Source of the DNA: Thelonectria olida
Taxonomy: Eukaryota > Ascomycota > Sordariomycetes > Hypocreales > Nectriaceae
DNA length: 64,000 nucleotides
Assembly (NCBI GenBank): GCA_020736575.1
Contig: JAGPYM010000027.1
Location: 248,001-312,000, forward strand
Direction of reading: 5' to 3'
A model generated the notes under the pieces. It was not told the DNA's origin. It did not search any database and saw only the letters and a list, made by a program, of their open reading frames with translations. The position numbers were made by a program, and so were the translations under genes. Numbering within the stretch: the stretch's first letter is position 1; each line of letters begins with the position of its first letter. Positions 28,625 through 28,766 of the stretch are shown here, piece by piece.

Positions 28625-28751
28625 GCGGGTTTAGCTCAGTTGGGGTGAGTAAATATTCTCTTAAAACTCCAGCACCATTAGTCTAACAATCTCTACAGAG
28701 AGCGTCAGACTGAAGATCTGAAGGTCATGTGTTCGATCCACATAAACCGCA
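28625..28751 (+). tRNA. tRNA-Phe (GAA), interrupted in the D-loop
   Basis: A nuclear tRNA-Phe gene split into 28625-28644 and 28699-28751. Removing 28645-28698 leaves exactly 73 nt that fold as a complete cloverleaf: acceptor strand GCGGGTT with AAACCGC (one G5:A68 mismatch), D-stem GCTC/GAGC, anticodon stem TCAGA/TCTGA around loop CTGAAGA (anticodon GAA at 28712-28714), T-stem ATGTG/CACAT around TTCGATC, and discriminator A73. The internal pol III promoter is intact: A-box TAGCTCAGTTGG at 28632-28643 and B-box around GTTCGATCC at 28731-28739. A T6 terminator follows 9 nt after the gene. There is no intron at the usual position 37/38; the interruption lies after G20 in the D-loop. The intact stems argue against a pseudogene, although expression cannot be seen from sequence. 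Confidence 0.88.
28645..28698 (+). other. 54-nt spliceosomal-looking intron inside tRNA-Phe
   Basis: The insert begins GTGAGT, contains CTAAC at 28683-28687 with the branch A about 11-12 nt from the end, and finishes CTACAG. These are the same signals, and the same length class, as the protein-gene introns in this window. It interrupts the D-loop between G20 and A21, where the eukaryotic tRNA splicing endonuclease does not normally cut. Removal would restore a perfect D-arm. Confidence 0.75.
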
Positions 28752-28760
28752 TACAATTCC

Positions 28761-28766
28761 TTTTTT
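28761..28766 (+). terminator. Pol III terminator of tRNA-Phe
   Basis: A run of six T on the coding strand starting 10 nt after A73, the standard RNA polymerase III stop signal. Confidence 0.8.

Follow-up and report, generated by a model that had tools for sequence, protein, structure and literature searches.

tRNA introns and mRNA introns form the textbook pair of separate splicing systems. Canonical nuclear tRNA introns, located at position 37/38 and handled by the Sen endonuclease and Trl1, share with the genes described here an interrupted tRNA gene whose promoter boxes are intact. In all four genes described here, however, the insert lies at 20/21, is longer, carries spliceosomal signals, and departs from the strict bulge-helix-bulge register. 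The tRNAs of the red alga Cyanidioschyzon merolae come closer in position, with interruptions in the D-loop and a permuted type I junction at 20/21 but their introns form a bulge-helix-bulge, whereas the strict register fails here and mRNA splice signals are present (PMC3978253).

Spliceosomal introns outside mRNAs are described for two small RNAs of fungi. The U6 snRNA genes of Schizosaccharomyces pombe and other fungi are small-RNA genes transcribed by pol III that contain a short GT-AG intron and its branch site, as does U6 of the present genome, and in this they are like the genes described below. They differ in that the host here is a tRNA, normally served by a different enzyme system, and in that four paralogues carry the intron. 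For fission yeast, one paper describes the U6 intron as mRNA-type and spliced (PMC10484740), and a table in another has, for Trichoderma reesei, the entry 'U6 snRNA promoter with 1st intron' (PMC9518982). The introns of fungal U3 snoRNA genes, according to a 2017 survey, start with GTRWGT, have an RCTRAC branch motif at a mean branch distance of 15 nt, and can be present in one paralogue and absent from another within one genome; like the inserts reported here they are GT-AG introns, although U3 is not a tRNA (PMC5832005). According to the same survey, no small structured RNAs other than U3 and U6 were known to contain introns frequently (PMC5832005). Cryptococcus SRP RNA was considered as a further precedent and set aside, the paper on it arguing against introns (PMC4605306). 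The main text of a 2014 review on tRNA introns holds no word starting with 'spliceosom' (PMC4090602), while the tRNAscan-SE 2.0 paper, in its part on noncanonical introns, handles them as archaeal. No earlier report of a spliceosomal intron in a tRNA gene stood out among the papers listed in searches of the open-licence literature, and one may exist elsewhere. What is already known would then be the spliceosomal intron of small-RNA genes transcribed by pol III, and the new element would be a tRNA as its host.

The window, that is, the whole stretch of 64,000 nucleotides that was analysed, contains a tRNA-Phe(GAA) gene at 28625-28751, with a 54-nt insert at 28645-28698 (GTGAGT...CTAAC...CTACAG) after nucleotide 20. 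The position at 20/21, the splice signals, the length, and the tRNA-Phe restored by excision, all claimed in the initial annotation, were each recovered from the letters and from ARAGORN. The gene is laid out as follows, exon 2 being placed from the sequence and ARAGORN and the other elements from the sequence:

28625..28644, plus strand: tRNA-Phe exon 1, nucleotides 1-20, ending directly after the A box; identical in all seven tRNA-Phe genes found
28632..28643, plus strand: A box, TAGCTCAGTTGG
28645..28698, plus strand: putative spliceosomal-type intron, 54 nt, position 20/21
28645..28650, plus strand: 5' splice site, GTGAGT
28683..28687, plus strand: branch-site motif CTAAC with T rather than R before it; the presumed branch A is 28686; CTAAC is found in all four inserts
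28696..28698, plus strand: 3' splice site, CAG
28699..28751, plus strand: tRNA-Phe exon 2, nucleotides 21-73, anticodon GAA
28731..28739, plus strand: B box, GTTCGATCC; its G57, at 28735, is the isodecoder mark
28761..28766, plus strand: T6 run, pol III terminator

The junction of the window insert has two equivalent placements, giving GT-AG or, when shifted one base to the left, GG-CA. The A box is a pol III promoter element, and the insert begins directly after it. Because A box, B box, and T run are all left whole, the interrupted gene is probably transcribed by pol III, and the placement of the insert is compatible with this; the distance between the starts of the A and B boxes, 45 nt without the insert, is 99 nt for the window gene and 103 nt for that of contig C111.

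The initial annotation had also proposed looking for the same insert in the other tRNA-Phe genes of the genome, and this search brought up three more at the same site. In 52.5 Mb on 165 contigs, a DNA search and a pattern search each gave seven tRNA-Phe(GAA) genes; the pattern, the 3' half of the tRNA (up to 3 mismatches), had no match in the control. The insert stands at exactly 20/21 in 4/7 genes, on four different contigs, and the other three are uninterrupted:

Contig C86 (window): one interrupted gene; insert of 54 nt, 5' end GTGAGT
Contig C79: three genes in series, uninterrupted, interrupted, and uninterrupted; insert of 54 nt, 5' end GTATGT
Contig C35: one interrupted gene; insert of 53 nt, 5' end GTACGT
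Contig C111: one interrupted gene; insert of 58 nt, 5' end GTACGT
Contig C75: one uninterrupted gene

The three genes in series on C79 span about 460 bases (C79:495886-496343; L009 287-744). With the insert left out, each of the four interrupted genes has a cloverleaf, a GAA anticodon, A and B boxes, and a T run, and T runs of at least 5 lie downstream of all seven tRNA-Phe genes. The Rfam tRNA model assigns 65.6-66 bits to the three uninterrupted genes. None of the seven holds an intron in the anticodon loop (37/38). Position 57 is G in every interrupted gene and A in every uninterrupted one, so that intron and isodecoder go together.

All four inserts start with GTRNGT, have a CTAAC beginning 16-17 nt from their end, and finish in CAG; GT-AG ends with a GTRNGT-like 5' site, as in U2-type spliceosomal introns, are thus present in 4/4. 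The fuller branch motif RCTRAC occurs in three of them, the window copy reading TCTAAC. The joint occurrence of GTRNGT, a CTRAC whose start lies 10-30 nt before the end, and a final YAG was scored per insert against shuffled sequences: single-letter shuffles produced it in 0/100,000 cases for each of the four, and dinucleotide shuffles with the first and last letters fixed in 8, 3, 1, and 3 of 20,000. The inserts fold weakly (-1.1 to -4.7 kcal/mol).

The mRNA introns used for comparison come from ten short stretches between matches to tubulin or actin-family exons, in which five introns could be placed by reading frame. These five are 71, 69, 62, 55, and 52 nt long, and each has a CTRAC, starting 16, 16, 18, 18, and 13 nt before the end. 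With lengths of 53-58 nt and branch distances of 16-17 nt, the tRNA inserts lie within the ranges of this small set (52-71 nt and 13-18 nt, n=5). They match the consensus better than the set itself does, as only one of the five mRNA introns starts with GTRNGT (the others have GTGAGA or GTGAGC) and four end in YAG, the fifth, positioned by eye, ending in AAG. The window holds 11 further intron candidates of 49-120 nt, one pair overlapping, which look similar, but the consensus was the criterion by which they were selected. Among the comparison stretches, L128 appears to contain one more intron, and L131 the end of one.

The inserts could alternatively be non-canonical tRNA introns, cut by the Sen complex at a relaxed bulge-helix-bulge and joined by tRNA ligase like the D-loop introns of red algae, their spliceosomal letters being coincidental. 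C. merolae provides a precedent, as both D-loop introns and a 20/21 junction come there with bulge-helix-bulge motifs (PMC3978253). The usual tRNA-intron system is evidently in use in the present genome, where introns in the anticodon loop occur: an insert sits in that loop at nine of the ten tRNA loci for which alignments were shown, and the tenth has none. A central helix is also possible in the four D-loop introns, with 3, 4, 4, and 4 of 4 pairs, wobbles included; random NNNYAG tails, however, allow 3 or 4 such pairs 46% of the time. In the strict register, the only form scored, the outer helix has 1/4 pairs in all four copies and the inner helix 2, 0, 0, and 0 of 3. The same script applied to 25 distinct ARAGORN calls with anticodon introns found 4 outer and 4 central pairs in 8, and 4 outer with 1-3 central pairs in 4; the other 13 showed 0-3 outer pairs, several of them apparently set out of register by ARAGORN. 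A relaxed bulge-helix-bulge with the D-stem as its outer helix may form. The fungal complex, however, probably takes the body of the mature tRNA as its point of measurement, which counts against its cutting here, and cleavage by Sen would leave the common GT...CTAAC...AG unexplained. On balance, removal of these introns by Sen is improbable.

The comparison of the four interrupted genes with each other bears on whether they work at all. Their exons are identical at 72/72 positions in all six pairs, whereas their introns share 45-68% identity over aligned positions. Once the first 6 and last 17 nt are cut off, the intron bodies are at the level of shuffled sequence in three of the six pairs (0.48-0.66 of 300 shuffles as good); two pairs retain some likeness (0.01 and 0.03), and one is borderline (0.08). 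The 60-nt flanks gave twelve values, from 0.04 to 0.70 of 200 shuffles. The tail CTAACCTTCACTGRCAG is common to three of the four introns, which may be a sign of common descent or of constraint. Since the exons are identical while introns and flanks have diverged, the interrupted genes look functional; mere decay should erase exon identity equally fast.

These observations weaken the alternative, already raised in the initial annotation, of silent copies, by which the four interrupted genes would stay unspliced and all tRNA-Phe(GAA) would be made by the three uninterrupted genes. Those three genes do exist, with the Rfam scores given above, but the identical exons at four loci are accompanied by splice signals in 4/4 and by T runs that have been kept. 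Gene conversion restricted to the exons could mimic their identity, yet the introns, although placed in mid-gene, would have to escape it. Silence of all four copies thus appears about as improbable as cutting by Sen.

The genome also offers an internal parallel. Scoring 47 of 2792 first-look candidates, a single U6 snRNA gene was found, with these features:

L059 1501-1670 (G000:C122:777140-777309), minus strand: U6 snRNA gene, 170 nt for a 105-position model
L059 1559-1629, minus strand: U6 intron, 71 nt, GTCAGT...CTAAC...CACAG, dividing ACAGAGAAGAT from TAGCATGG

A functional U6 requires removal of this intron, which makes a pol III transcript most likely a substrate of this organism's spliceosome already, the splicing of U6 being deduced in its turn. 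The U6 intron lies in the catalytic core and includes GTTCGAACC, which resembles a B box, as though a promoter element for pol III were located inside the intron. Three matches to U3 snoRNA (G000:C57:807467, in L134; C75:39671; C88:149807), from 24 of 724 candidates scored, show no intron-sized excess, since they measure 267-270 nt against a 274-position model. That pol II also or solely transcribes the interrupted tRNA genes, the spliced tRNA sequence being part of a longer capped RNA, is very improbable: the signals of the insert are indeed those of pol II introns, but the genes keep intact A and B boxes and T runs, each of the four loci, whose 60-nt flanks are hardly more alike than shuffled sequence, would need a pol II transcript of its own, and such transcription is unnecessary if U6 is spliced here.

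The reading of the inserts as spliceosomal-type introns, put forward in the initial annotation from the window copy, gains support from the three further interrupted copies and from the U6 intron of the same genome. They are probably spliceosomal introns in functional nuclear tRNA-Phe genes and, with slightly less assurance, a whole tRNA-Phe isodecoder (four genes, G57) can be expected to need the mRNA spliceosome for its maturation. Pol III would transcribe the interrupted gene, and U1 and U2 would recognise the 5' site and the branch site on an uncapped precursor, as they must on the U6 precursor in this organism. Excision of the 53-58 nt intron as a lariat by the spliceosome would follow. 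The D-arm and the cloverleaf would fold only once the intron is removed and, as they cannot form earlier, splicing would precede trimming by RNase P and RNase Z. A point against this explanation is the uncapped first exon of 20 nt, which would be unusually short. As for its history, one intron gain after nucleotide 20 of the G57 isodecoder may have been followed by duplication to four places, with introns and flanks drifting while selection held exons and splice signals. The interrupted genes need not be essential, because three uninterrupted tRNA-Phe genes exist.

If this explanation is correct, these would be spliceosome-processed tRNAs, and tRNA supply would be tied to splicing capacity. 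With well-formed spliceosomal introns retained by four paralogues at a site other than the canonical one, this tRNA family would cross the boundary between two splicing systems. A pol III gene would be able to tolerate an intron gained directly behind its A box, such an intron could spread through gene duplication and, together with the U6 intron, pol III transcripts of this lineage would be regular substrates of the spliceosome. This raises the questions of how an RNA that has no cap and a first exon of 20 nt is recognised, in which order splicing and end-trimming take place, and how introns enter non-coding genes.

Spread as a mobile introner family, which would be a large repeat family, is not supported, as the tail CACTAACCTTCACTGRCAG, with up to 2 mismatches allowed, has four matches in the genome, three of which are in the tRNA-Phe introns. 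The fourth, G000:C89:2452790-2452808, minus strand, forms together with the sequence just upstream (L109 1501-1545) an intron-like stretch before a possible start codon. It has 18/19 letters (CACTATCCTTCACTGACAG) in common with the tail of the three tRNA-Phe introns, by relation or by chance.

Other tRNAs were covered in part. A scan for an A box followed by GTRNGT gave 27 hits for the TAGC type (control, 59) and 60 for the TGGC type (control, 55). All 27 TAGC-type hits were inspected, and a B-box-like motif within 220 nt was present in the four tRNA-Phe genes only; ten of the 60 TGGC-type hits were inspected, none with a B box. A tRNA-model search scored 63 of 1484 candidates, 61 of them above the cut-off. 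In this partial census, D-loop introns were found in tRNA-Phe only. In collections of viral and prokaryote DNA, which include no fungal relatives, the interrupted-gene pattern and the tRNA-Phe 3' half had 0 matches each.

Interrupted tRNA genes of this kind are a blind spot of gene finders. ARAGORN reported no tRNA in the window; it called none of the four interrupted genes as they stand, all four as tRNA-Phe(gaa) with the insert removed, and all three uninterrupted genes. The Rfam tRNA model gave the window copy 28.3 bits, below its cut-off of 29, taking letters of the intron as the 5' half. At the loci L068-L073 ARAGORN calls tRNA-Cys(aca) with odd introns, and these isotype calls are unreliable because the Rfam alignments of L068, L069, and L071 differ, showing an ordinary insert in the anticodon loop and resembling tRNA-Lys(CTT).

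By its proteins the organism, a filamentous fungus, is Nectriaceae-like: a sulfatase encoded near the tRNA-Phe gene has 91% identity with a sulfatase from Dactylonectria estremocensis, and a fast-evolving protein of the window has its best named relatives in Ilyonectria, Neonectria, and Cylindrodendrum, at 39-41% identity.
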